In this document: positions 1-20,440 of the stretch, in pieces
Position numbering within the stretch: the stretch's first letter is position 1
Layout: every line of letters starts with the position of its first letter
Virus record (IMG/VR): IMGVR_UViG_3300046411_001096
Location: 1-20,456 of that record
Length of the DNA stretch: 20,456 nt
Direction: 5' to 3' (one strand)
Source: a virus
Program-made: the position numbers and the translations under genes
Notes under the pieces: model-generated
What the model was told of the DNA's origin: nothing
The model's input: only the letters and a program-made list of their open reading frames with translations
The model's database searches: none

Positions 1-289
1 CTGCATCATGCTCAAATATAGTAACTTCTTCTTTTATTTCTGTACAATGCTTCCATAACGACCAATGCGAGTGAAAAGCAGCCATGCAGTTATCTAAACG
101 CGAATATTTTTCTTTAAATCCTTCTGGTTCAATACCTGCATCAAAAAGAAATCCATATAGAAGTTCATTAGGAGTTGTAGCTTCCCAATTTTGTATTTCA
201 AAGCCATATCTTTTTCCAGATGTAATACACCGTGCCGCCGCCTCAACAGACTTTGGCATTTGGGACATAGTAATAACATAATTTTTCAT
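1..289 (-). CDS. GT25-like glycosyltransferase, partial (C-terminus beyond left edge)
   Basis: An open frame runs from ATG at 289 to the left edge, giving 96 residues of an unfinished protein. It starts MKNYVITMSQ. A histidine/tryptophan-rich helix around residues 67-80 (AAFHSHWSLW) leads to an acidic motif, FEHDA (92-96). This is the spacing seen in family 25 (LPS-type) glycosyltransferases, where a 'SH.sLW' segment precedes an E-D-D/E-H-D motif at the sugar-nucleotide/metal site. The gene immediately upstream (start 978) has the same two motifs, so the two look like diverged paralogues. The start overlaps the upstream stop as ATGA, indicating translational coupling in the glycan operon. The acceptor and sugar are unknown, and the missing C-terminus prevents a firmer call. 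Confidence 0.7.
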   Translation of the reverse strand, partial: MKNYVITMSQMPKSVEAAARCITSGKRYGFEIQNWEATTPNELLYGFLFDAGIEPEGFKEKYSRLDNCMAAFHSHWSLWKHCTEIKEEVTIFEHDA

Positions 290-978
290 TGAGTCGTGGT
301 ACTCTTTAAATTTTGAATAGTAGTATAGAATTTACGGGTGACATATAAGTCAGGAAATAATTGTCTGCACATTATGGCATCGTTTGGCCAAAGGCCAAAT
401 TCCTCTACAAGCTTAAGCATTCTAATTGCGCCGCTTGGTTTAATTATATATGCACTATTTCCAGCTAACCCCTGTGGAACATTTTCATTATCTACCTTAG
501 GAGCTAATTGAAACATGTTTTGGCTGTCAATTACTTTCTGATAAAACACTCTAGCCTTACGTGTACAGCCAAGTGGATTATTAATTCCAATAATATTTCC
601 TTTACATTCACTTGGATTAATATTTAGTTTATAAGTAAAACAGGCATCGTGTTCTAATATTAATATTGTTTCGTTGCTTGTGGCGGCTTCAAGCCACAGT
701 GAATAGTGACTCAGCGCGGCTGCAACCCTAGCCTTAGGTCTTGCCGTTACATACGCGCGTTTAATTAAGCCTGACGCAAAATCAGTAACTTCTCCGGTCC
801 ATGGATAATTCCATTGTAACTTAAATTTTGAAAGAAGTACATCAGTATTTTCAGGTACTATAGCATTGAATCGATTTATTTCAAAATCGTTCTTGACCCT
901 AAAAGAACTAGTCACCAGGTTTTTATACCCGTGCTCAGATATATCGTGGTCTCTAATTACTATAGCATAGGCTTTCAT
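286..978 (-). CDS. GT25-like glycosyltransferase
   Basis: A 230-residue protein, similar in length to family 25 (LPS-type) glycosyltransferases. It has the order expected of that family: an N-terminal beta strand (KAYAIVIRD), a helix with ALSHYSLW near residues 88-95, then ILILEHDA at 105-112, the likely metal/sugar-nucleotide site. A later segment with NSAYIIKPSGA resembles the region that ends the catalytic domain. Most characterised members have ED[DE] where this has EHD, and the partial gene downstream shares that change. No signal peptide or membrane segment is visible, so it should act in the cytoplasm. Both ends overlap neighbours by 4 nt (ATGA). The target could be host surface glycan, a phage structural protein or another acceptor; the sequence does not decide. 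Confidence 0.72.
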   Translation of the reverse strand: MKAYAIVIRDHDISEHGYKNLVTSSFRVKNDFEINRFNAIVPENTDVLLSKFKLQWNYPWTGEVTDFASGLIKRAYVTARPKARVAAALSHYSLWLEAATSNETILILEHDACFTYKLNINPSECKGNIIGINNPLGCTRKARVFYQKVIDSQNMFQLAPKVDNENVPQGLAGNSAYIIKPSGAIRMLKLVEEFGLWPNDAIMCRQLFPDLYVTRKFYTTIQNLKSTTTQ

Positions 979-1556
979 GATACTCTTTCTAGTAAAGTAT
1001 ATCCTTCTGCGACTTCATTACGTTCAATGACTTTAAACGGATACTGATCACAAAACCTAACTAAAGTTTCATACAAAGAACTATTCTGACGACCATTAAT
1101 AATACTAGTGTCGTGTGCCAAAATATATTTTTTAATATTAACTTGATGTGTCATAAGTTCTCTTGACATGTGTTGAGGATGATGATAGCTATCAATTAAA
1201 AGAAAATCCACAGGGCCACCAGAAGATTTTAGATGTGTAGAATCTTGTTCAATTTCTTTTAAAATGATTTTATGTTTCAAGCAAAACTCTTCTGCAATAG
1301 GCTGTAAGAATTTTCTATATCTTGACATATCGTTATCGACTAATACGATTTTCTTTGGTTTAGTAAGTAGGGCCGCAGAAGCCGTACCACCTTGGTGTGT
1401 ACCTAGCTCCATATAAGAATCGCACTCTTTCATTCTTTCTTTAATAACCTCATGGTGATCACAATAATGTTCGCCATGTGCTTCTGTCTGCTGTCTTACA
1501 ATTTCCTTATGAAACTGCTTTAGAGTTTTTACGTGCCCTAGTTCAGAATTTATCAT
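975..1556 (-). CDS. Class I SAM-dependent methyltransferase (Methyltransf_24/CmcI-like)
   Basis: A 193-residue protein with a Rossmann-type methyltransferase core. Motif I is MELGTHQGG (49-57), the strand-2 acidic residue is in VLVDND (71-76), and a LLIDSYH motif (119-125) is followed later by ILAHDTS (145-151). The 'ELGTxxGGT ... IDxxH ... HD' order is that of the rhamnosyl O-methyltransferase / cephalosporin hydroxylase-type family, in which the acidic and histidine residues bind a metal. It lies between an epimerase and a GT25-like enzyme, so O-methylation of a sugar residue or glycan end is the best inference. It starts 1 nt after the upstream stop and overlaps the next gene by 4 nt. The substrate is unknown. 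Confidence 0.72.
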   Translation of the reverse strand: MINSELGHVKTLKQFHKEIVRQQTEAHGEHYCDHHEVIKERMKECDSYMELGTHQGGTASAALLTKPKKIVLVDNDMSRYRKFLQPIAEEFCLKHKIILKEIEQDSTHLKSSGGPVDFLLIDSYHHPQHMSRELMTHQVNIKKYILAHDTSIINGRQNSSLYETLVRFCDQYPFKVIERNEVAEGYTLLERVS

Positions 1557-1557
1557 T

Positions 1558-2415
1558 TTATACCTCGTATTTTATAGCGTCAATGCACATATCTTCTAAT
1601 GATTTATTTTGTTTAAAATATTTAGATTTGGTAGGAACAGTTGATATGGCAATATCACCGGCTCTGCGAGGCCCTTCAACTACTTCAAAATTAACTCTCG
1701 AAACATTGGCCATTGCATCTACAACTTCTTTTACTGAATGCCCTTCAGGAGAACCTAAACAATCGATTTCATTTGTAGGTTCGTTCTCGGTTATTCTCAT
1801 TAAGGAATCGACTATATCTTTGACATGCGTATAGTTTCTGACACACGTACCGTCTCTTGTTTCAAAGTCAGTTCCATGAATATACAGCTTATCAAATTTA
1901 CCATTAACTACAGCAGCTGCTCTTCTAATGAGATGGCTATATTCATCATCATATTTTGCCATACCATCATTGCCACTTACATTATAGAATCTCACAATAC
2001 TGCATTTGGGTTTAAATTGGTTTGCTATTAATTCACCTGCGTGTTTTGATCCTGCATATGGATTACTTTGTGGTTCGAAAGCACTGCCAGTTGAACAATA
2101 AACAAAATGATCGCATGCTGCAGCATCGATTACATTCTTAGTTCCGATGACATTAGTCATATAATAGTTATAAGGATCTTTTACTGAATTAGGAACTTTT
2201 GTTTGCGCAGCAATATGAATTACTTTATCATATGTATCATTATTATTCAGCAGTTTATTTCGAATATCCCAAGGATAAAATTTGTGACAGTACTTAAAAA
2301 TATCATTCTGTTTAGTATTAAAATCTGCAGCTGAAATTGTATGTCCAGCCTCTGCAGCGGTTTTTACAAAATGAGCACCTATATAACCCGTGGCGCCTGT
2401 CACAAATAATCTCAT
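1558..2415 (-). CDS. NAD-dependent sugar epimerase/dehydratase, UDP-glucose 4-epimerase-like
   Basis: A 285-residue extended short-chain dehydrogenase. The N-terminus MRLFVTGATGYIGAHF holds the GxxGxxG NAD-binding turn. D31 follows strand 2. The catalytic set is visible as YCSTGSAF (S108/T109) and the Y-x3-K pair Y120/K124 in NPYAGSKHAGE. The order matches GalE-type epimerases, although the protein is shorter than the roughly 340 residues of bacterial GalE, mostly through a compact C-terminal substrate domain. With a UDP-galactopyranose mutase two genes upstream, conversion of UDP-glucose to UDP-galactose is the simplest role. Another UDP-sugar epimerase or a 4,6-dehydratase relative cannot be excluded. 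The start is 3 nt after the upstream stop, inside the glycan operon. Confidence 0.8.
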   Translation of the reverse strand: MRLFVTGATGYIGAHFVKTAAEAGHTISAADFNTKQNDIFKYCHKFYPWDIRNKLLNNNDTYDKVIHIAAQTKVPNSVKDPYNYYMTNVIGTKNVIDAAACDHFVYCSTGSAFEPQSNPYAGSKHAGELIANQFKPKCSIVRFYNVSGNDGMAKYDDEYSHLIRRAAAVVNGKFDKLYIHGTDFETRDGTCVRNYTHVKDIVDSLMRITENEPTNEIDCLGSPEGHSVKEVVDAMANVSRVNFEVVEGPRRAGDIAISTVPTKSKYFKQNKSLEDMCIDAIKYEV

Positions 2416-2418
2416 AGT

Positions 2419-3237
2419 TTATCCTTCATTAGGCCAGTTTTTATTTACTGGCAAATTCCATTCATTAACAGGACTATTAGTAATCTGCCATAGAGCTTCT
2501 TCTGGCCAGTCATCGGCTGTGCGGAACATAATATGTACTAGCTTTGCATTATCTGGCCTGTTATCACCAATTTTGGCCACAGGATGAGACCCTACTTTGT
2601 GCATATAACAATTCCATTCGTTAGGCATACGCATTAACTTAAAATTAGGAAGATGAATAAAGGCTGAAAAGTAATCTTGAAAGAGCCTATAGAACCTAGG
2701 AAATTGACCCATTTTATCTACGTAGTCTTGAAATGACGGCCAATCCTTTTTCATCTTTTGCAATCCAGCTTTTGATATTACTACTACGCCAGTATTAAAT
2801 ACTTCTGGTCTACCTTCTTTATCATAAGAATATTTTATGCCCCAAGTGTCTTCGCAGGTTCTAGCCCATACTTTATCTACTGCGCTTGTAATTCCACCAG
2901 AATTATAAATTGTTCTAAAGAAAGGTTGCTTAGGTTCAGTGCAAATACCCGCGTCTTCGCCATTAAGCATAAACAAATTATCTGATAATCCTTCTACAGG
3001 AAACACATCAATATCTATTAATGCCACATTATCATACTGATCAAATTCAGCGCTCACTAATGGATTAGCAGGTTCATAATATATTGGTACATTTACTACT
3101 TTACTGGCGATAGTAACATTATGGTCAAACTTATATGCAGCTCCAATTTTATCTGCATATGCTTTCATTAGTTTAGTACTAGCTAATACCCCAGGTTTTA
3201 AAGGTCCTTGCCAATATTGGTAAATCATGTTTTTCAT
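2419..3237 (-). CDS. DxD-motif glycosyltransferase (paralogue 1 of 3)
   Basis: A 272-residue protein with an N-terminal segment (MIYQYWQG, then KAYADKIGAAYKF around 25-37) and a DxD motif in VALIDIDVFP (71-80; D75 and D77). In retaining GT-A glycosyltransferases this aspartate pair binds Mn2+ and the sugar nucleotide. The genes at 4238-4909 and 5510-6298 show the same plan ('YA..iGADY' then 'D[IG]D[IVM]F'), so all three are probably diverged copies of one family. Tryptophans near the C-terminus (WPEEALW, NEWNLP) resemble acceptor-binding regions but were not assigned. No signal peptide is visible. It overlaps the upstream mutase gene by 4 nt. A start at the second methionine (3228) is also possible. 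Confidence 0.72.
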   Translation of the reverse strand: MKNMIYQYWQGPLKPGVLASTKLMKAYADKIGAAYKFDHNVTIASKVVNVPIYYEPANPLVSAEFDQYDNVALIDIDVFPVEGLSDNLFMLNGEDAGICTEPKQPFFRTIYNSGGITSAVDKVWARTCEDTWGIKYSYDKEGRPEVFNTGVVVISKAGLQKMKKDWPSFQDYVDKMGQFPRFYRLFQDYFSAFIHLPNFKLMRMPNEWNCYMHKVGSHPVAKIGDNRPDNAKLVHIMFRTADDWPEEALWQITNSPVNEWNLPVNKNWPNEG

Positions 3238-4241
3238 TTTTTATCCTTAAATCGTTTTGCTATAGCCAATGAAGAATTTATAGCTTGATGCATATCTAAG
3301 TATGCATATAATCCACAGCGACCTATAAATGTCATATTCTTAGATTGAAGTTTTTTATATTTTTCGTAAATCTTTTTATTTTTATTATCAGCATCTTTTA
3401 CTGGATAATATCTTTCTAAATTATTTTCAAGATAATCACATGGCTCTTCAAACGTAAGCGTTGTCATATATTTATTGTCACCATGACATGGTATATTTTT
3501 CCATTCTGTAACTCTGGTCTTAGGTCCGTGATGAGTAAAATTGACAACTGCAGTTGGTAATGCTTTTGGTATAGGTAGACTTATTGTCTCAAATTTAATA
3601 GAACGATAAGGTAGCTTTCCATATTTAAATTCATAATACTCATCTATGGGCATAGAGTTAAACACATGATCATATTCTTTCTCTAATGATTTATTAAAAT
3701 GCACTTTAAGATCAACTGTGATATTATGGTGATAAAGAATATTATTAACCATTTCTGTATAGCCAAGCCGAGGCATATACTGTATTTTATCATCTGGAAA
3801 GTATAATTCGTTGTCGTCATCTCTTATAGGTACACGATTAATAATATCCGGATTAAGTTTATCTAACTCTACTCCCCACATCTTTTTAGTATAAGGTCTG
3901 AAGAATACATCTAAGACGTTTTCTTCACCTACTATATCTTTTGTTTCTTTATTAACAGGCAACGTTACGTATTGGCCGTCTGCTAATTGGGCCTTTACTT
4001 TGTGTCTATATTCAACCCAATCGGTAAATCTAGACAGCCATTCAAAAACTGTTTTATTATTAGTATGAAATAGGTGTGGACCGTACTTATGAACTCTTAT
4101 ACCGTGTTCGTTATTGTAATCATAGGCGTTGCCGGCAACGTGATCACGGCGGTCAATTACGTGAACACTGTGGCCGCTATCAGCCAGTTCTCTAGCTATA
4201 GTAACTCCAGATAATCCAGCACCTACCACTAATATTTTCAT
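3234..4241 (-). CDS. glf: UDP-galactopyranose mutase
   Basis: This 335-residue flavoenzyme should interconvert UDP-galactopyranose and UDP-galactofuranose, the donor for galactofuranose-containing glycans. Visible hallmarks are the FAD-binding dinucleotide fold at the N-terminus (KILVVGAGLSG; G7, G9, G12), an acidic residue in HVIDRRDHVAGN, the mutase signature HKYGPHLFHT (51-60), FFRPYTKKMWG (113-123), the arginine in TRVTEW (243), and the C-terminal GRCGLYAYLDMHQAI (308-321), which closes the flavin and UDP site. It is slightly shorter than bacterial enzymes (about 370-390 residues) but has all the end motifs, so it looks intact. It overlaps both neighbours by 4 nt. The epimerase at 1558-2415 could supply its substrate. 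Confidence 0.93.
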   Translation of the reverse strand: MKILVVGAGLSGVTIARELADSGHSVHVIDRRDHVAGNAYDYNNEHGIRVHKYGPHLFHTNNKTVFEWLSRFTDWVEYRHKVKAQLADGQYVTLPVNKETKDIVGEENVLDVFFRPYTKKMWGVELDKLNPDIINRVPIRDDDNELYFPDDKIQYMPRLGYTEMVNNILYHHNITVDLKVHFNKSLEKEYDHVFNSMPIDEYYEFKYGKLPYRSIKFETISLPIPKALPTAVVNFTHHGPKTRVTEWKNIPCHGDNKYMTTLTFEEPCDYLENNLERYYPVKDADNKNKKIYEKYKKLQSKNMTFIGRCGLYAYLDMHQAINSSLAIAKRFKDKK

Positions 4242-4909
4242 AATATACCTTTGTCAACCAGTGCCTGATAGTTTTCTATTTTCTCGCGTTTTGGCCCCTG
4301 GGGTGTAATCTTAGTTCTTACATGAATAAACCCTGCGGTTTGAGGGCTAGGAAGGAAACTGCACTGACACCATCTTCTGTGAAGATAAGGTTTCTTTGGA
4401 GTAAAGCCAGACTTAACGGCTAAAGTGTGAATGATGCCTTCATCTTCATAATTATAAAGTTTATTATATGGATGCATCCAAGCTTCATTGCCGCCTAATT
4501 CAGATCTAAGCTTAACTCTCATATCCTTTGAAAATTTGTAAATAGCTCCACCCCAATAAGGATATAAAAGACTAGCGTACATGGGATATGAAGCAGCCAG
4601 TCTATGGTGTAGCCTATGCTGCACCTCTTCATATAGGCCAATACCAGATTCTTCAAATATATTAGTAGTCATATTCTTCGGGGCAAACATATCAATGTCA
4701 AGCATTAGCACATCATCATAGTCATCAAACTCTTCATGAAGCATATGAACTTTTTGACAAGGTGATGTAAGATGCTTTCGAAAAGGTTTACCTGTGATTA
4801 GTTTATAATCTGCATTTACTAGCTTAGCATATTCCTGAATATTAGCCATAGACAGTTTATCGAGCTCTCTTAACTCACCGTCAAAATGCTGTAGAATAAT
4901 ATTTACCAT
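4238..4909 (-). CDS. DxD-motif glycosyltransferase (paralogue 2 of 3)
   Basis: A 223-residue protein beginning MVNIILQHFDG, with QEYAKLVNADYKLI (26-39) and a DxD motif in VLMLDIDMFAP (67-77; D71 and D73). This is the same architecture as the genes at 2419-3237 and 5510-6298. It is the shortest of the three and has a histidine/arginine-rich middle (YEEVQHRLHHRLAAS) absent from the others, and a tail with histidine/tryptophan residues (LHRRWCQC). The DxD pair would bind metal and nucleotide sugar. It is cytoplasmic by absence of a signal peptide. It overlaps the upstream methyltransferase by 7 nt and the downstream mutase by 4 nt, so the genes are co-translated. Sugar and acceptor are unknown. 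Confidence 0.7.
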   Translation of the reverse strand: MVNIILQHFDGELRELDKLSMANIQEYAKLVNADYKLITGKPFRKHLTSPCQKVHMLHEEFDDYDDVLMLDIDMFAPKNMTTNIFEESGIGLYEEVQHRLHHRLAASYPMYASLLYPYWGGAIYKFSKDMRVKLRSELGGNEAWMHPYNKLYNYEDEGIIHTLAVKSGFTPKKPYLHRRWCQCSFLPSPQTAGFIHVRTKITPQGPKREKIENYQALVDKGIL

Positions 4910-5508
4910 GGTTTTGAAGCTTCTACTACTGCAGAATGAAATGCTCTAACTGTACCAGGCGTGTCGATATTATTAAATGGAGCTAATCCACTTTTTTGAT
5001 ATAGACATTCCTTAACGTTAATGTATCCTAGTTCTTTTAAAGATTCAATAAGTTCGGTCTTACGCCAAATGTGTTTATGTTCACCATTTTGCCACATAAT
5101 ACCTTCTGCGCACTGATCTTGTATGCGCATGCTCCGTGTATTTTTAGGTGCAAAGTTATGTTTGACAACATAGAAGTTATAATAGTGTTGAACCCAAGAA
5201 TGATTTTCTAAACTATTTTCTTGTCTTAGCCATTCTACAAATTCCATAGGTGGCCAGATAGATCTAATAATTCCACCTGGTTTCATTATACGAAACATTT
5301 CTTTGAAGTAATTTATGCCTTCTTCTTTTGTGAGATGTTCAATAAAGTGTTCGCTATAAACGCCATTATATGTATTATCTGAAATACCTCTCATAGGCAG
5401 ATCTGTTAGATCATATTTTTCTACACCATTAGCAGGATCTGCAACGTCTCTAACTGCATCCCAATTTAAATCACGTTTACGACTAGCAGCAATTTCTAAA
5501 AATCTCAT
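4903..5508 (-). CDS. SAM-dependent methyltransferase-like protein
   Basis: A 201-residue protein related to the predicted methyltransferases found in glycan clusters (Methyltransf_11/COG4627 type). The recognisable part is YSEHFIEHLTKEEG (51-64), followed by FKEMFRIMKPGGIIR (68-82), the post-motif segment that precedes strand 5, and a conserved WPP. The N-terminus reads MRFLEIAASRKRDLNWD, where relatives usually have a glycine-rich 'LNLGCG' motif I. SAM binding may therefore be altered, or the protein may have lost methyltransferase activity. No start upstream in the frame was seen that would add a missing motif. It sits 1 nt before the next gene upstream (stop at 5510) and overlaps the downstream glycosyltransferase by 7 nt. 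Confidence 0.65.
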   Translation of the reverse strand: MRFLEIAASRKRDLNWDAVRDVADPANGVEKYDLTDLPMRGISDNTYNGVYSEHFIEHLTKEEGINYFKEMFRIMKPGGIIRSIWPPMEFVEWLRQENSLENHSWVQHYYNFYVVKHNFAPKNTRSMRIQDQCAEGIMWQNGEHKHIWRKTELIESLKELGYINVKECLYQKSGLAPFNNIDTPGTVRAFHSAVVEASKPW

Positions 5509-5509
5509 A

Positions 5510-6298
5510 CTATATCCCTACTAATTTTGCTAGTTCTTCAATGTTCTCGCCTTCCATAGGCAGAACAGTTTTATGAAAGAAGTGAATAAAGTGCGCTTCA
5601 TGGAGTTTATCGTTAGGAACAGCATTATACAGTCCGTTCCATTTCCAATCTAAATTCTTAGTACGCATTTTTTCTTCTTTAATCCATGTATTAAGAAGAG
5701 TCTGGTCTGTTGACCATTTCCATGCGCCGATTCCATCGATGAACGGCTTAAATCGTGGTCGTCTTAAAAACTGTGCAGGTGTTTCTCCGTTTAGATATTT
5801 ACCCATAGATTTATTCATGAGCATCATTCCCATATTGTAGAATTCAGCACCTTTGTTATTCCATTTCCAATCTACGTTTTTAATATTACCATACTGCATA
5901 CGAGAATAATTAGTTATTTTAGAAACATAACGATCATTAAGAGGCATTTCTCTTTCAACAACGCCGGCAAAATCATAGTCATTATTAATTTCATTAAAAA
6001 TATCAGGCGCTGAATCCCTAATAAAAATATCGCCATCAATTAATGCTATTTTGTCATACGATTTAAAATATGCAAATGCGTTTTCTTTCTCATAAATGGG
6101 AAGAAAGCCGCCATATTTCATATATGATTCATTTGATCTATTTGTTTGAAAAACATCTGGCTTAATCATGAGTATAGGTTGCCGCTGCACAATATAATCA
6201 GCGCCAATTCTATCAGCATATTTTTTTACTGAAGCAGTACAAAAATCATATAATTTTTTACGTTTGCCGGTATACACCTGGTAAATTAGTTTTTTCAT
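5510..6298 (-). CDS. DxD-motif glycosyltransferase (paralogue 3 of 3)
   Basis: A 262-residue protein from ATG at 6298 (MKKLIYQVYTG). An ATG two codons earlier, at 6304, would give 264 residues. The later start is preferred because the AGAGAG Shine-Dalgarno sequence lies 8 nt before it but only 2 nt before 6304. It contains KKYADRIGADYIV and the DxD-type motif IALIDGDIF (D88 and D90 from this start), as in the genes at 4238 and 2419. A GAEFYNMGMMLMNKSMG segment resembles the donor-site loop of such enzymes, and HFIHFFHKTVLP near the C-terminus supplies possible catalytic or metal-binding histidines. It overlaps the preceding small gene by 41 nt. The acceptor is unknown. Confidence 0.72.
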   Translation of the reverse strand: MKKLIYQVYTGKRKKLYDFCTASVKKYADRIGADYIVQRQPILMIKPDVFQTNRSNESYMKYGGFLPIYEKENAFAYFKSYDKIALIDGDIFIRDSAPDIFNEINNDYDFAGVVEREMPLNDRYVSKITNYSRMQYGNIKNVDWKWNNKGAEFYNMGMMLMNKSMGKYLNGETPAQFLRRPRFKPFIDGIGAWKWSTDQTLLNTWIKEEKMRTKNLDWKWNGLYNAVPNDKLHEAHFIHFFHKTVLPMEGENIEELAKLVGI

Positions 6299-6506
6299 TT
6301 TCATAACTCTCTAAAATCTTTTTAGCTAGATCCATAGCTTCATCAAATCGTTTTCTAAATCGATTCTTTTTAGCACTATGATTCACAAAATAATATAAAC
6401 TATCTATATCACCAGTATATGTGGGTAAATCATAGGTCTTCCTAAAACCTACTATTTCTTCATACTGGTATCGATTGGAAAGAAGTTCAGCCAACGATGT
6501 ATTCAT
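6258..6506 (-). CDS. Small conserved-looking protein of unknown function
   Basis: An 82-residue protein, not recognised. The ATG at 6506 (MNTSLAELLSNRYQYEE) is preferred over a GTG three codons upstream because GGAG lies 8 nt before the ATG, whereas the GTG abuts it. It is charged and probably helical. Its C-terminal half (KKNRFRKRFDEAMDLAKKI) is basic and amphipathic. It overlaps the end of the HAD-type gene by 20 nt and the glycosyltransferase start by 41 nt. That is more overlap than elsewhere in the operon and lowers confidence. In its favour are the good ribosome site, and that dropping it would leave a gap of about 190 nt between two tightly packed genes. Confidence 0.6.
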   Translation of the reverse strand: MNTSLAELLSNRYQYEEIVGFRKTYDLPTYTGDIDSLYYFVNHSAKKNRFRKRFDEAMDLAKKILESYENEKTNLPGVYRQT

Positions 6507-16023: not shown

Positions 16024-16968
16024 TTATGCCTTTGTTGCTGATGGAATAACTTTACTGTCGCCTGCCTTATTGTCGTTGGTTCTAGCTTTTTTACTGGGTC
16101 CAGCATTAGCTGCCTTTTTAACATCATCACCTGAAGCTTCAGGGTTATCTTTAACATCCTTTGTAGTATTTAACATATCCTGAGCACCTTTAGATGATTT
16201 AGATGCATCATTAGGTTCTTGTGCGGCTGCAGCACTTTTGTAATGCTCTCCACGCTTTTCCATGATCCGCGTATATACTGGCCATACAGTTGATTCAATT
16301 GCAGAAACCTCGTTATCACCCATTTTAGCTTTCTTGGTTTCTTTTTTAGGATTAACTACTACTTCGTCCTCTTCGTTCTTAGACGCCTTAGGAATATCAA
16401 AAGGAGCTTTCTTCAAAGTAACGGCTTTCTTACCCTTTTCTGACGAGGCTGAAGCCTTTGCTAACTTTTTAGCTAGTGCCATGTTTTTACTCTCTTCAAC
16501 TTCTTCTTTCATAGATTTTTTATATAGATCCAATGCCTTTGCGTACTTTGGATTCTTCATCATACGTTTTGATTCACCGTGATCTGGATCATCGTGAGCC
16601 ATACGAACAGTAGGTTCATCTAAGTTATGAGTTTTCATATGCTTTTTATATGCATCAAACTTTTTAGGATCAACAGTTTTGCCAAAACTTTTACTCATAG
16701 GTCTCATGCTGCGAGAAATTTCATCCAAACTTGCTTCTTTTACGTCATCAGCAATTGCCTTAGCGGTATCTTTTTTCATAGTAACAGGATATTTTTTACC
16801 TGCAAAATTAAAGTGTGATTTACCAGCTTTATGTGCTCCAGCCGCTGCGCCGTGGAACGCGGTGCGCTCTGCTGCTTGAATAGTTTCTGGGATCTCAAAT
16901 TCGTTGAGTTTATTTTCTGCGACCTGTTGCAGTGCGGCCGCCATTTTACTAATTGATTCTTGATTCAT
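16024..16968 (-). CDS. Lysine-rich probable capsid-interior/structural protein
   Basis: A 314-residue, strongly lysine/alanine/serine-rich protein with low-complexity linkers and little hydrophobic core. Recognisable pieces are GKSHFNFAGKKYPVTMKKDT (49-68), EASLDEISRSMRPMSKSFGK (78-97), a central acidic/basic linker, and a late STVWPVYTRIMEKRGEHYK. Segments like 'LDEISxxM' and 'WPVYxRIxEK' recur in head-associated proteins of marine T4-like phages as I recall them. The composition fits a prohead core or packaged internal protein, possibly cut by the head protease, but that is inference. AAGGAA lies 5 nt before the ATG. It follows the coiled-coil membrane protein gene by 9 nt. Confidence 0.65.
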   Translation of the reverse strand: MNQESISKMAAALQQVAENKLNEFEIPETIQAAERTAFHGAAAGAHKAGKSHFNFAGKKYPVTMKKDTAKAIADDVKEASLDEISRSMRPMSKSFGKTVDPKKFDAYKKHMKTHNLDEPTVRMAHDDPDHGESKRMMKNPKYAKALDLYKKSMKEEVEESKNMALAKKLAKASASSEKGKKAVTLKKAPFDIPKASKNEEDEVVVNPKKETKKAKMGDNEVSAIESTVWPVYTRIMEKRGEHYKSAAAAQEPNDASKSSKGAQDMLNTTKDVKDNPEASGDDVKKAANAGPSKKARTNDNKAGDSKVIPSATKA

Positions 16969-17316: not shown

Positions 17317-17580
17317 CTAACAATTCCAGCGCCTACGTGCTGCTTTACCTCTTTCACCAGTCCAACTTTTTGATCTTGCACAAAACGATTTCCTACGACC
17401 AGCCGCCTTAGATCCTTTTTTTAGTTTACTGGGTTTAGTTGTAACTGCAGTTTGTAGTTTACTACCTGGATTCGCCCGTTTAAATGCATCGACGCCTTTC
17501 TGAGTCATACCAGCACCCTTGTCGGCTGAACGAAAGTGTCCTTTAGAATCTTTTTCTAAAAATGTTTTAAACTTATCCAC
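17317..17580 (-). CDS. Very basic small protein with internal-protein-like leader
   Basis: An 87-residue protein starting at GTG (17580), which overlaps the upstream stop by 8 nt. No ATG is available in the frame nearby. The first residues MDKFKTFLEKD match the leader of three other genes in this block. The body is arginine/lysine-rich and ends GRRKSFCARSKSW ... ARRRWNC. I recall this 'SFCARxK ... RRWNC' tail, and 'GVDAFKRANPGSKLQ', from small basic proteins of marine T4-like phages. The high positive charge fits DNA binding inside the head. The paired cysteines could bind metal or crosslink, but the role is unknown. Confidence 0.75.
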   Translation of the reverse strand: MDKFKTFLEKDSKGHFRSADKGAGMTQKGVDAFKRANPGSKLQTAVTTKPSKLKKGSKAAGRRKSFCARSKSWTGERGKAARRRWNC

Positions 17581-17806
17581 CGAACTCGTGCCCCGCTACC
17601 CTACGCATTTGCTTGTTAAATTCAGATTGTGATGGCTTAGATTTATATAGTTTAATAGAAATCTCAGGGCGTTCTTTACCTTTGATTCTCCAGTTATGGC
17701 CTTTTTCTTTATGATCAGCACTAGTAGTTTTAACAACACGACGTTTGTATCCGGCCTCCCAGGACTCAGACTTTTTTTCTACCATAAACTGCTTAAAACT
17801 AATCAT
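17573..17806 (-). CDS. Small basic protein with internal-protein-like leader
   Basis: A 77-residue protein. The leader MISFKQFMVEK lines up with the capsid-targeting peptide of T4 internal proteins (aromatic at 4 and 7, hydrophobic at 8, Glu at 10). The body has AGYKRRVVKTTSADHKEKGH (18-37), a PEISIKLYKSKPS strand and QMRRVAGHEFGG at the end, segments I recall from conserved marine T4-like phage proteins. It is basic with no membrane segment. The ATG overlaps the upstream stop by 8 nt (ATGATTAG), and its own stop overlaps the next gene by 8 nt. Packaging into the head is inferred from the leader and the block, not shown. Confidence 0.75.
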   Translation of the reverse strand: MISFKQFMVEKKSESWEAGYKRRVVKTTSADHKEKGHNWRIKGKERPEISIKLYKSKPSQSEFNKQMRRVAGHEFGG

Positions 17807-19043
17807 TTGTTTTCTCTTTATTCAGCATTTTACGCAGCTTAAGAAGCTTCTCTTTATTGCTATCTGATACCTTTGCTACTTTAGTTGTAGCTTCTGATTT
17901 CATAGCATTTTTTACATGCCGCAGTTTTTGTTGATACTTAGCAATCTCTTGGTCAATAGACGGATTTTTTGCACCTTTTAATTTTTTAGTTTGAAGATCA
18001 CCGATTTGTCTGCTAAAACTAGCATGCTTATCTTTTAATTTATTTGCCGGATGTTTAAGATAAGGATTCATGTCTTCTTCAACTGCCTCACCATAAGGTT
18101 TTTTAGTAACTGCTTTGCGAAACTGCTTGGCTCTCACGTTTGTAGCCATGTCCATACCTTTTTCGCGCCGGCGAATAACATCTTTTTCTTTTGAGATGTC
18201 TTTATTGCCTCTTACAATCTTTGCAGTTGCAGAGTTACGCGCACGATCACTTTGTGCTTTAGCTTTATTATGATACCTATCCATTGCTCCTGGAGTATCT
18301 AATACTTCATCAACTGATTCTTTTTTTCTTTTTATTCCTACAGCGTGTATAGCACCCTTTAAACGGTTATTTGCTTTTCTTGTACCGCTGAAAGCATCAT
18401 CACCCTTTGTTTTATCTAAATAAGATTGGGCGGTTTTTTTAGAAATTTCGTTAACTTCTTCTTTCATATCTTTAACTTTACCATTCTTTAAATGGCGCTT
18501 AATAGTTTTACCAGCTTTTGTTTGCATAGTTACAATATGACCACCATCTGGGTGAGGCTTACTATTGATGATTTTCATTTTGTCACGCTGCCCGGCATAA
18601 GTATTAGCTTCATTTTTCTTTTGAGCCGCAATATATTCTTTTCTGCTGCACCAATTTTCTCCGGCCATGTCATAAGCGTCGTACATGCAGCTTTCGTTTG
18701 TGGGCTTACCATACGTATCACCGCATGATTTACACACTTTTTCTTTCATAGAATAAGATTCATTCTTTGGAACACAATTAGGTACCATTTTGTTTCCCTT
18801 TTTCTTCATTCCAACTTGCTTATGGCTATCCCAACAAGCTTCATCTGTTTTTTTCTTAAAGGTTTCAAGACCTTTTTTACTACCAGCAGCCATTCTGTCA
18901 GCTTTATTAGCCTGAGTAGTTGCAATGCGCTTCATACCGCCTTCGTTCTTAACTACTTCTTTATCTACAGGAACCATACGAATTTTAGGTTTTCCATCAG
19001 GTCCTACATATTTTTCAGGTTTTCTGTCTGCTGATTTTGTCAT
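17799..19043 (-). CDS. Large lysine-rich modular protein with cysteine cluster, probable head-associated
   Basis: A 414-residue, highly basic protein without a conventional domain. It reads as modules joined by linkers: a DEACWDSHKQVGMKKKGNKM ... VPNCVPKNE segment (68-95); a cysteine-rich stretch C104, C107 (CKSC), C119 and C132 that could bind zinc; a PHPDGGHIVTMQTKAGK segment (163-179); a VNEISKKTAQSYLDKTKG segment (198-214); VDEVLDTPGAMDRYHNK (244-260); and a C-terminal helical region. I recall the 'CW..H..VGMK ... VPNCVP' and '[VL]xEISKKT..SYL' modules from several cyanophage and other marine T4-like phage head-region proteins. Motif E-x repeats may be protease sites. It lacks the leader found in its neighbours. 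The role is inferred as virion core or packaged. Confidence 0.68.
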   Translation of the reverse strand: MTKSADRKPEKYVGPDGKPKIRMVPVDKEVVKNEGGMKRIATTQANKADRMAAGSKKGLETFKKKTDEACWDSHKQVGMKKKGNKMVPNCVPKNESYSMKEKVCKSCGDTYGKPTNESCMYDAYDMAGENWCSRKEYIAAQKKNEANTYAGQRDKMKIINSKPHPDGGHIVTMQTKAGKTIKRHLKNGKVKDMKEEVNEISKKTAQSYLDKTKGDDAFSGTRKANNRLKGAIHAVGIKRKKESVDEVLDTPGAMDRYHNKAKAQSDRARNSATAKIVRGNKDISKEKDVIRRREKGMDMATNVRAKQFRKAVTKKPYGEAVEEDMNPYLKHPANKLKDKHASFSRQIGDLQTKKLKGAKNPSIDQEIAKYQQKLRHVKNAMKSEATTKVAKVSDSNKEKLLKLRKMLNKEKTND

Positions 19044-19044
19044 T

Positions 19045-19296
19045 TTAGCCTCTTACTTTCGCTGCCAGATCTTTGTCTGCTTTTCCCCATGTACCAGATG
19101 ATTTGGTAACAAATGAATTTACTCTTGCATGTCCCCATTGTGATGGAGTAGTACCCGGCCGATGACCGGTTTTCCATGCGGCTACACCTCTATTATAAAC
19201 CTGACGAAGAACGCCTAATGGCATGCCAGTTTTTTCTGCTTTCTTTTTTAAAGAAGCTGTCGCATCTTCTGCAATATATGCTTTAAAATTAATCAT
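19045..19296 (-). CDS. Small DUF5824-like protein with internal-protein-like leader
   Basis: An 83-residue protein from ATG at 19296 (MINFKAYIAEDATASLKKKA). An ATG at 19302 would add MA. The later start is preferred because it makes the 8-nt ATGATTAA overlap used at other junctions here and puts the leader in register with T4 internal proteins (F4, Y7, I8, A9, E10). The body, MPLGVLRQVYNRGVAAWKTG then HRPGTTPSQWGHARVNSF, matches a phage family I remember as DUF5824, usually of unknown role. It is basic and compact. The gene ends 1 nt before the start of the 414-residue protein. Confidence 0.78.
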   Translation of the reverse strand: MINFKAYIAEDATASLKKKAEKTGMPLGVLRQVYNRGVAAWKTGHRPGTTPSQWGHARVNSFVTKSSGTWGKADKDLAAKVRG

Positions 19297-20440
19297 CGCC
19301 ATACATCTTTCTATATTTTATGGTGTGTTTAGATAATCTTGTTTTTGCTTTTGCATCACCAGGCGCAGGCTTATATGCCTTTGGATCACTATCAGACATT
19401 TTTGCCTGTTTTTTAAACTGCCTATCTCTTGCAATTTTCTGTGCTTTCTTTAGGCCTCTATGATAATTAGCCGGCTGAGAACCTGGCCTATCTTTAATGT
19501 CACTATCTTGTGCTTCTGTTGTTTCACCTGGAGTTATTTTCTTAGCTTTTCTAGTTGATTCGGGCGTACCCCAATCAGGTTTATCCGCATACATTGATGC
19601 TTCATTAGTAATATCTGAATCTATCTTAGACACATCATCAAGCCAGCATCTCCACGTTTCATTTTTTGACTCTACTATAAGATAGTTTGTGCCAAGGTAT
19701 TTTATATTGCCTACAATACCCTTTTTAGTTAGTACAACTTTTTCACCTTCTTCAAAAATATTATCTCTAAGATAAGCTTCACGTAAATCAGAGACGGGCT
19801 CTAATTGAATATGATTTTTAAATTGTTTTTCTTCTTTTAGTCCTAGCCCAGACCTTACGTCATTAAATAAGCGTTTGGCATTAGCATTTGACATATTAGA
19901 TGGAAGGCTTCTGGTAAACGCTGTAAAATCATTGGCTACTGCGTATTCTCTTTGTTTAGTTCCGGAAGCACCTTCTGCTCCATCAGCATCGGGGTCTCTT
20001 TCACCTGCAGATATAATTTTTATACCACCTTCAAAATTATAAAATCCGTGATCACCTTTTTTTCCATTATACTTGTTTAAACGTATATCATATTGCGTAA
20101 TGCGATCTGAACCTGCAATCATAACTACCTTTTTATAACCTTGATCATATAAAAATGACAAAGCATGAAAGGGCGTTTTAACCTTATTATTTAAAATAAT
20201 AGACCGGGCGTGCTTCGGAAACATTTTTCTAACGTGTTTTACTTTATCTTTATATTGCAACGGATTTTTTTTCTTGTCATTAGATTGTGACAAAAATATT
20301 CTATAAGGATATCTCCGTGCTTTATTAGCTAAAGTATCTAGTAACTTACCATGACCAATAGTAGGTGGATTCATTCTACCAAAGGTAAAATAAACTACAT
20401 TTTCTTCTTCAACAAGAAACTGACTAAAACGATTTATCAT
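19289..20440 (-). CDS. Nucleotidyltransferase (NMNAT/cytidylyltransferase-like) with leader and basic tail
   Basis: A 383-residue fusion-like protein. After a leader MINRFSQFLVEE (1-12) comes a Rossmann nucleotidyltransferase domain with YFTFGRMNPPTIGHGKLL (17-34; T-x-G-H at 27-30), IAGSDR (108-113) and ASGTKQREYA (158-167), equivalent to the 'SSTKxR' ATP site. The relatives are NMN adenylyltransferases and NadR-type enzymes. A second part (229-272, EGEKVVLTKKGIVGNIKYLG) resembles a small SH3/KOW-like barrel. The C-terminus (319-383, PGSQPANYHRGLKK ... AYKPAPGD ... KYRKMYGDD) is basic and matches a tail I recall from marine phage proteins. The substrate is unknown; NAD-related or nucleotidyl transfer to RNA, lipid or sugar is possible. 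An L-R-E|A site at 219-222 fits the T4 head-protease consensus. Confidence 0.85.
   Translation of the reverse strand: MINRFSQFLVEEENVVYFTFGRMNPPTIGHGKLLDTLANKARRYPYRIFLSQSNDKKKNPLQYKDKVKHVRKMFPKHARSIILNNKVKTPFHALSFLYDQGYKKVVMIAGSDRITQYDIRLNKYNGKKGDHGFYNFEGGIKIISAGERDPDADGAEGASGTKQREYAVANDFTAFTRSLPSNMSNANAKRLFNDVRSGLGLKEEKQFKNHIQLEPVSDLREAYLRDNIFEEGEKVVLTKKGIVGNIKYLGTNYLIVESKNETWRCWLDDVSKIDSDITNEASMYADKPDWGTPESTRKAKKITPGETTEAQDSDIKDRPGSQPANYHRGLKKAQKIARDRQFKKQAKMSDSDPKAYKPAPGDAKAKTRLSKHTIKYRKMYGDD

Follow-up and report, generated by a model that had tools for sequence, protein, structure and literature searches.

The internal proteins IPI, IPII and IPIII of phage T4 share an N-terminal capsid-targeting sequence (CTS) of about 10 residues, with aromatic residues at 4 and 7, a hydrophobic residue at 8 and Glu at 10, in front of unrelated mature bodies, several per phage. 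Genetic analysis of the IPIII leader assigned residues 4 and 7 to targeting and residues 8 and 10 to processing, the gp21 protease cutting after L/I-x-E (PMC9026906). IPIII also affects head morphogenesis (PMC9026906), and IPI-III are injected restriction inhibitors (PMC12373910). Repoila et al. 1994, as cited in PMC12373910, described the polymorphism of the T-even ip genes, in which a conserved leader is combined with exchangeable bodies. Among the open-licence papers searched, capsid targeting and cyanophages are treated together only in the T4 head review (PMC9026906). Here we describe the locus 17317-20440 (minus strand) of the viral fragment IMGVR_UViG_3300046411_001096, whose 20,456 nt (the window) hold all the data on the phage itself, and in which four of five tightly spaced genes carry a leader at the N-terminus. 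We consider these leaders to be T4-type capsid-targeting sequences, with a probability of roughly 0.83, and our call is that the T4-type system extends to marine phages, with enzymes as cargo and possibly with polyproteins cut by the protease.

Four leaders and their T4 counterparts

The five genes encode a 383-residue nucleotidyltransferase, an 83-residue DUF5824 protein, a 414-residue modular protein that has no leader, a 77-residue basic protein and an 87-residue DUF6321 protein. The four N-termini that the earlier note on this DNA had read from the minus strand, starting at 20440, 19296, 17806 and 17580, are all present. Leader 1, MINRFSQFLVE (MINRFSQFLVEE, 20408-20440), has aromatic residues at 5 and 8, L9 and E11, with the cut predicted after E11; among 20 orthologues F5 and E11 are invariant and L9 is conserved in at least 90%. 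Leader 2, MINFKAYIAE(D) (19267-19296), has F4, Y7, I8 and E10, of which F4 and E10 are almost invariant in 21 relatives; its open reading frame (ORF) opens 6 bases upstream, at 19302, reading M-A-M. Leader 3, MISFKQFMVE(K) (17777-17806), has F4, F7, M8 and E10, and leader 4, MDKFKTFLE(KD) (17554-17580, GTG start), has F4, F7 and E9.

The first aromatic residue is thus at position 4 or 5, at the extreme N-terminus, in all four leaders, and the two targeting aromatics are at 4 and 7 exactly in three of them and offset by one in the other. The full pattern of aromatics at 4 and 7, a hydrophobic residue at 8 and Glu at 10 is exact in the 19296 and 17806 proteins and shifted by +1 in the 20440 protein. 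At the processing motif, LVE and IAE fit L/I-x-E, whereas MVE has Met instead of Leu or Ile. The shared pattern of aromatic, hydrophobic and Glu residues proposed in the earlier note therefore stands, except that the 17580 protein lacks the canonical L/I-x-E register: its position 10 is Lys, the targeting positions are retained and the motif is out of register (FLE/LEK), with F-L-E as a possible alternative processing site. Its distinct relatives begin MDKFKTFMEK, MIKFKVFLEK, MESFKRYMAE and MLNFKKFISE. In AlphaFold (AF2) models of the 20440 and 19296 proteins, residues 1-9 or 1-10 are of low confidence (predicted local distance difference test, pLDDT, <50) and the bodies are folded, which is consistent with a removable peptide.

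Gene starts were scored with a family-weighted position-specific scoring matrix (PSSM), trained on a marine set that includes the window and is without T4. The four leader genes have the top start scores in the window, 17.7, 17.6, 17.5 and 11.2 for leaders 1 to 4, and the next gene scores 1.0, a ranking that is partly circular because relatives of these genes are in the training set. Applied to T4, the marine matrix places IPII and IPIII among the top four of 275 ORFs, and the conserved marine positions coincide with those of T4 targeting (4 and 7) and processing (8 and 10). The best T4 start is that of gp61.1 (MKTFKEFIKED; NC_000866 18966-19130, L273:467-631), a 54-residue protein encoded between genes 61 and 41. 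The marine cluster in Syn9, S-SM1 and S-SCSM1 lies in the same gp41-gp61 surroundings, and gp61.1 is a candidate for an extra internal protein, the comparison covering its leader and its location.

Head genes are absent from the 20-kb window, and the evidence on protease and capsid comes from relatives. A gp21 protease homologue is encoded in 11/11 genomes examined. The major capsid propeptide ends that are readable in relatives are FLSE|A, FLTE|T, LLTE|A, ILTE|A and FLGE|I, that of T4 being FLTE|A; this site is of the same kind as the leader site, which supports the T4-type reading. The marine leaders nevertheless differ from the T4 CTS in their consensus, F-K-x-[YF]-[IL]-x-E against Y-Q-E-F-I-A-E in IPII and IPIII, and in their cargo, among which are enzymes and proteins of several modules; the marine genes are grouped in the gp41-gp61/nrd region. 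The combination of conserved leader and exchangeable bodies is that of the T-even ip polymorphism, although there the hosts of the leader are T-even coliphages and here they are Kyanoviridae-type marine phages and the Stenotrophomonas phage DLP_6, which is outside Kyanoviridae and has MMKFTQFLAES on a DUF6267-like protein. T4 Alt, an injected ADP-ribosyltransferase with a 7-residue propeptide, is also a head-packed enzyme freed by gp21 cleavage, but with another propeptide and another enzymatic activity.

The leader in related genomes and in virions

The earlier note had proposed testing the pattern for enrichment over chance, and it is enriched in 150 related marine sequences, made up of the window and of contigs retrieved via the transferase and the DUF5824 protein, with 1,934 exact-unique ORFs. 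The strict motif F-x-x-[FY]-[LIVM]-x-E directly after the start codon is found at 267 of 1,934 gene starts, against about 1.5 expected from the internal density (61/309,775 positions). Selection and relatedness of the contigs mean that this frequency cannot be read as a genome-wide rate, and the internal density is the fair control; a few leader-like start-codon matches that fall within longer proteins, which by eye resemble helicases and clamp loaders, were left out of the counts. Among 204 distinct marine leader segments the first aromatic is Phe in 203, the second is Phe or Tyr in all, Ile or Leu precedes x-E in 182 and Lys follows the first Phe in 112, a stricter consensus than the search pattern demanded. 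The bodies behind the leaders fall into 27 groups (any 25-residue match) or 35 groups (by coverage), and include a HIGH-family adenylyltransferase, an S-adenosylmethionine (SAM) lyase, a protein kinase, an HD hydrolase and a RimK ATP-grasp enzyme. The tagged genes of the window are indeed clustered, as the earlier note had it, but the tag is on far more proteins than the cassette of four.

In the complete and unselected genome of Phage C48C1, the strict pattern occurs at six gene starts against five times in 40,312 internal positions, and six gene starts among 203 ORFs score >=12 by PSSM. The transferase start annotated in C48C1 is probably too late, as an in-frame upstream GTG gives the leader MIKNFSQYLLEEE (L002:12001-12066). 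Among start scores >=12 in the 12 named genomes, none falls on a clearly cytoplasmic enzyme, some functions being unassigned. The strict expression alone was set aside: it finds nothing in HTVC008M and S-PM2 and overlooks degenerate leaders, MIKFKQFNEN and MDKFKTFLEK among them, and the PSSM was adopted for this reason. Separately, a Melnitz RimK-type ATP-grasp enzyme (L216:82-1131, TTG start) begins with MTQKFSQFITEE, and in vibriophage KVP40 (37733-39834) two adjoining genes begin with MLGNFDSFLSEN and MKQFCNFLAEV and may form a second locus for cargo, in this case in a member of Straboviridae.

Published virion proteomes by mass spectrometry (MS) connect the leader to the particle. The S-CREM2 virion contains 52 proteins (PMC10665884), and with a PSSM derived without S-CREM2 the four highest-scoring starts of its 219 ORFs all belong to virion-detected proteins: the adenylyltransferase ORF154 (MKNFSSFLTEA), a SAM hydrolase/lyase (MKDFDSFLEE), the APH-like kinase ORF14 (VKRFDAFLTEE) and ORF136 (MQTFSMFFSED). 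At a threshold of 6, five of seven are virion-detected (Fisher 0.008). ORF13 (MKDLHSFLTEQ) is likewise detected, as is ORF12 (L240:7704-10313), annotated as Cas9 and giving no Pfam match, which has the motif LRFASFMAEA at residues 17-26. Homologues of the window transferase with a leader have been detected in virions of four cyanophages, S-CREM2, S-SZBM1 (S-SZBM1_140, MRFRQFIIEA), S-SCSM1 (gp91, MKSFLQFLKEA) and S-SM1 (GC190, MKKFSAFLNEA), the last reported as T4-GC190 (PMC3037559). The annotation of S-SCSM1 lists gp89-93, 95 and 97, all from the syntenic block, as proteins of the virion.

The same bodies also provide a control, since DUF5824 and DUF6321 occur in small-genome pelagiphages, one siphophage and one T7-like cyanophage. 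These podo/siphophage copies have a leader in 0/8 cases, with scores of -8 to -15, against 68/74 stand-alone DUF5824/DUF6321 ORFs in contigs and T4-like genomes, the contigs being taken as T4-like as a set (Fisher p 8e-8, the sequences not being independent). Thus the leader tracks the type of phage and not the body, because the same bodies are tagged only in T4-like loci. Together with the T4 positions, the recovery of IPII and IPIII and the virion homologues, this control supports the T4-type targeting suggested in the earlier note.

Cargo bodies, fusions and junctions

The gene behind leader 1 (19289-20440, minus strand) encodes a HIGH-superfamily adenylyl/cytidylyltransferase with an NMNAT/PPAT-like fold, as indicated by Pfam (CTP_transf_like, E 6e-4), PHROG (cytidyltransferase, E 5e-69) and Foldseek, whose top matches are PPAT, NadD and NMNAT (E about 1e-4); a PDB sequence search gave no match. 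We prefer the NMNAT/PPAT-like label to cytidyltransferase because the fold matches are phosphopantetheine and nicotinate/nicotinamide mononucleotide adenylyltransferases. The closest named relatives are in Phage C48C1, HTVC008M, Melnitz and Kyanoviridae cyanophages. The C-terminus of the transferase (19298-19474) matches positions 1-54 of the DUF5824 profile (PF19141), and positions 59-125 (E 1.7e-18) match the small basic all-helical protein behind leader 2 (19045-19296, minus strand), for which a PDB fold search returned nothing at E <= 0.001. In Melnitz and HTVC008M this C-terminal half follows the transferase within a single fused protein. The bodies are therefore not all unrelated, contrary to the earlier note, as DUF5824 is split between the 20440 and 19296 proteins.

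The remaining three genes, also on the minus strand, encode small or modular proteins. The leaderless 414-residue basic protein (17799-19043) has several phi-x-E sites between its modules and a CWxxxKQVG module that is also present in S-SZBM1_139, a virion-detected protein. The small basic protein behind leader 3 (17573-17806) gave no match in Pfam or in the phage-collection search, and its body is also found as a module in longer ORFs. The small basic protein behind leader 4 (17317-17580, GTG start) matches DUF6321 (PF19846, E 1.9e-9), and a DUF6321-related module forms the C-terminus of the virion-detected S-CREM2 ORF137.

A DUF5824 half encoded by its own ORF usually has the leader directly ahead of it; in fused forms the start codon and leader are mostly gone, with a relic retained in five fused ORFs, and in this the marine leader is unlike the T4 CTS. 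At 18 of 19 distinct fused junctions phi-x-E is found within 18 residues ahead of DUF5824 (background 0.29), and the body of the 17806 protein, fused in nine distinct contig ORFs, has phi-x-E within 20 residues upstream in eight. Other junctions have it in 12/15 (basic module), 4/4 (P-loop module) and 5/7 cases (DUF6321). One contig ORF of 1,156 residues (L108:7493-10963) unites transferase, basic, P-loop and DUF5824 modules, at least four in all, which elsewhere have genes of their own; stretches like AFETYLDEA and AFENMLNEE link them. We infer that the prohead protease may cut such multi-module cargo proteins at phi-x-E sites, in which case head maturation would double as cargo processing; phi-x-E at junctions could also be part of each domain's own N-terminus, that of DUF5824 for example. 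Cyanophage transferases with long N-terminal extensions show no enrichment, with phi-x-E at 0/4 junctions, and the polyprotein reading is thus not valid for every module.

Proposed mechanism, alternatives and neighbouring features

Based on these comparisons, we propose that the N-terminal M-x-x-F-K-x-[FY]-[IL]-x-E peptide would carry unrelated proteins into the prohead core as the head is assembled, and that a gp21-type protease would then cleave the leader after Glu. Because the leader is removed in this way, the mature cargo would stay beside the DNA inside the head and, by T4 precedent, probably exit with it into the host. Cargo modules may also be chained as polyproteins behind one N-terminus, with phi-x-E sites between them cut by the same protease. 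Incorporation by the leader peptide and the role of each cargo are likewise put forward from the comparisons above. A wider form of the proposal, which we hold tentatively and at somewhat less than even odds, is a general head-loading system of marine T4-like phages, in which one tag and protease-site polyproteins would let maturation load and cut a mixed cargo for co-delivery with the DNA: an adenylyltransferase of nicotinamide adenine dinucleotide/coenzyme A type, SAM lyase, kinases, HD hydrolases, the Cas9-annotated protein and small basic proteins.

Oceans are rich in T4-like phages, and the enzymes repeatedly seen in their virions have so far been put down as possible passengers or contaminants. 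With a tag that can be recognised, their presence would have a mechanism other than carry-over; the packaged repertoire would also become partly readable from the genome, and further internal proteins are predicted even for T4, gp61.1 being the case in point.

Several observations weigh against capsid targeting by the leader. The phage of the window is represented solely by a 20-kb fragment, and cleavage of the leader proteins after Glu is argued from analogy with T4. HTVC008M and S-PM2 are without any start score >=12. In S-SZBM1 and in S-SCSM1 one leader transferase is detected and one small leader protein is not; the undetected pair, S-SCSM1 gp30 (44203-44535, MKTFKQFMSESVNISGDFNGNLY) and S-SZBM1_191 (122311-122640, MKSFKSFLSESVNISGDFNGNLY), apparent orthologues that are alike by eye, have very high leader scores and adjoin structural genes, but are missing from the MS lists. 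In S-SCSM1 the association is weak (3/6, p 0.045 at a threshold of 6; 1/2, p 0.28 at a threshold of 10). Virion-detected cluster proteins without a leader include S-SCSM1 gp89, 90, 92 and 93 and S-CREM2 ORF155, 156 and 160, and the leader is thus not the sole route into the virion. The S-CREM2 authors, finally, warn that non-structural proteins may be carry-over (PMC10665884).

Among the alternatives, the one that survives best, although we think it rather unlikely, keeps the import but changes its purpose: the leader would bring in basic proteins that build the internal core or condense the DNA and are not delivered as effectors. Three of the four leader-bearing proteins of the window are small and basic, and the effect of T4 IPIII on head morphogenesis is in line with such a role; set against it are the tagged enzymes (adenylyltransferase, SAM lyase, protein kinase, HD hydrolase and RimK ATP-grasp), which have no obvious task in the head, and the injected restriction inhibitors IPI-III. 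We find it improbable that the leader is a docking peptide for another phage or host complex, unrelated to the head. Short aromatic/hydrophobic motifs do commonly dock, and the cluster sits among replication and nucleotide-metabolism genes, but the leader has the exact T4 targeting and processing positions, the capsid propeptide site is of the same kind, tagged proteins are detected in virions and phages without T4-type heads lack the leader. Less probable still is the exchange of a shared 5' DNA segment or translation-start region with no function at the protein level: the IPII and IPIII leaders of T-even phages are identical, but in the window the four leader DNAs diverge and the key residues are nevertheless kept, few other N-terminal positions are conserved in orthologues, and the podo/siphophage copies are without the leader. 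Carry-over of abundant cytoplasmic proteins with a chance link to the leader, raised as a possibility for the virion enzymes by the S-SCSM1 as well as the S-CREM2 authors, is just as hard to credit, as the same enzyme is detected repeatedly in several independent phages and in S-CREM2 the detected proteins come first when ranked by a leader model to which these phages did not contribute.

Next to the cluster, the segment 16915-16968 (MNQESISKMAAALQQVAE, minus strand), the start of a 314-residue protein (16024-16968), is probably a propeptide of a second class. Its pattern I-x-x-M-x-x-A-[LY]-x-x-[VM]-x-E is found at the start of 22 of the 1,934 ORFs, against 0.12 expected, and many of the relatives sharing it have a DNDGD module. 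Elsewhere in the window, the gene run at 286-6304 resembles by eye a sugar-nucleotide/glycosyltransferase cluster, with an epimerase-like gene at 1558-2415 and a galactopyranose-mutase-like gene at 3234-4241.

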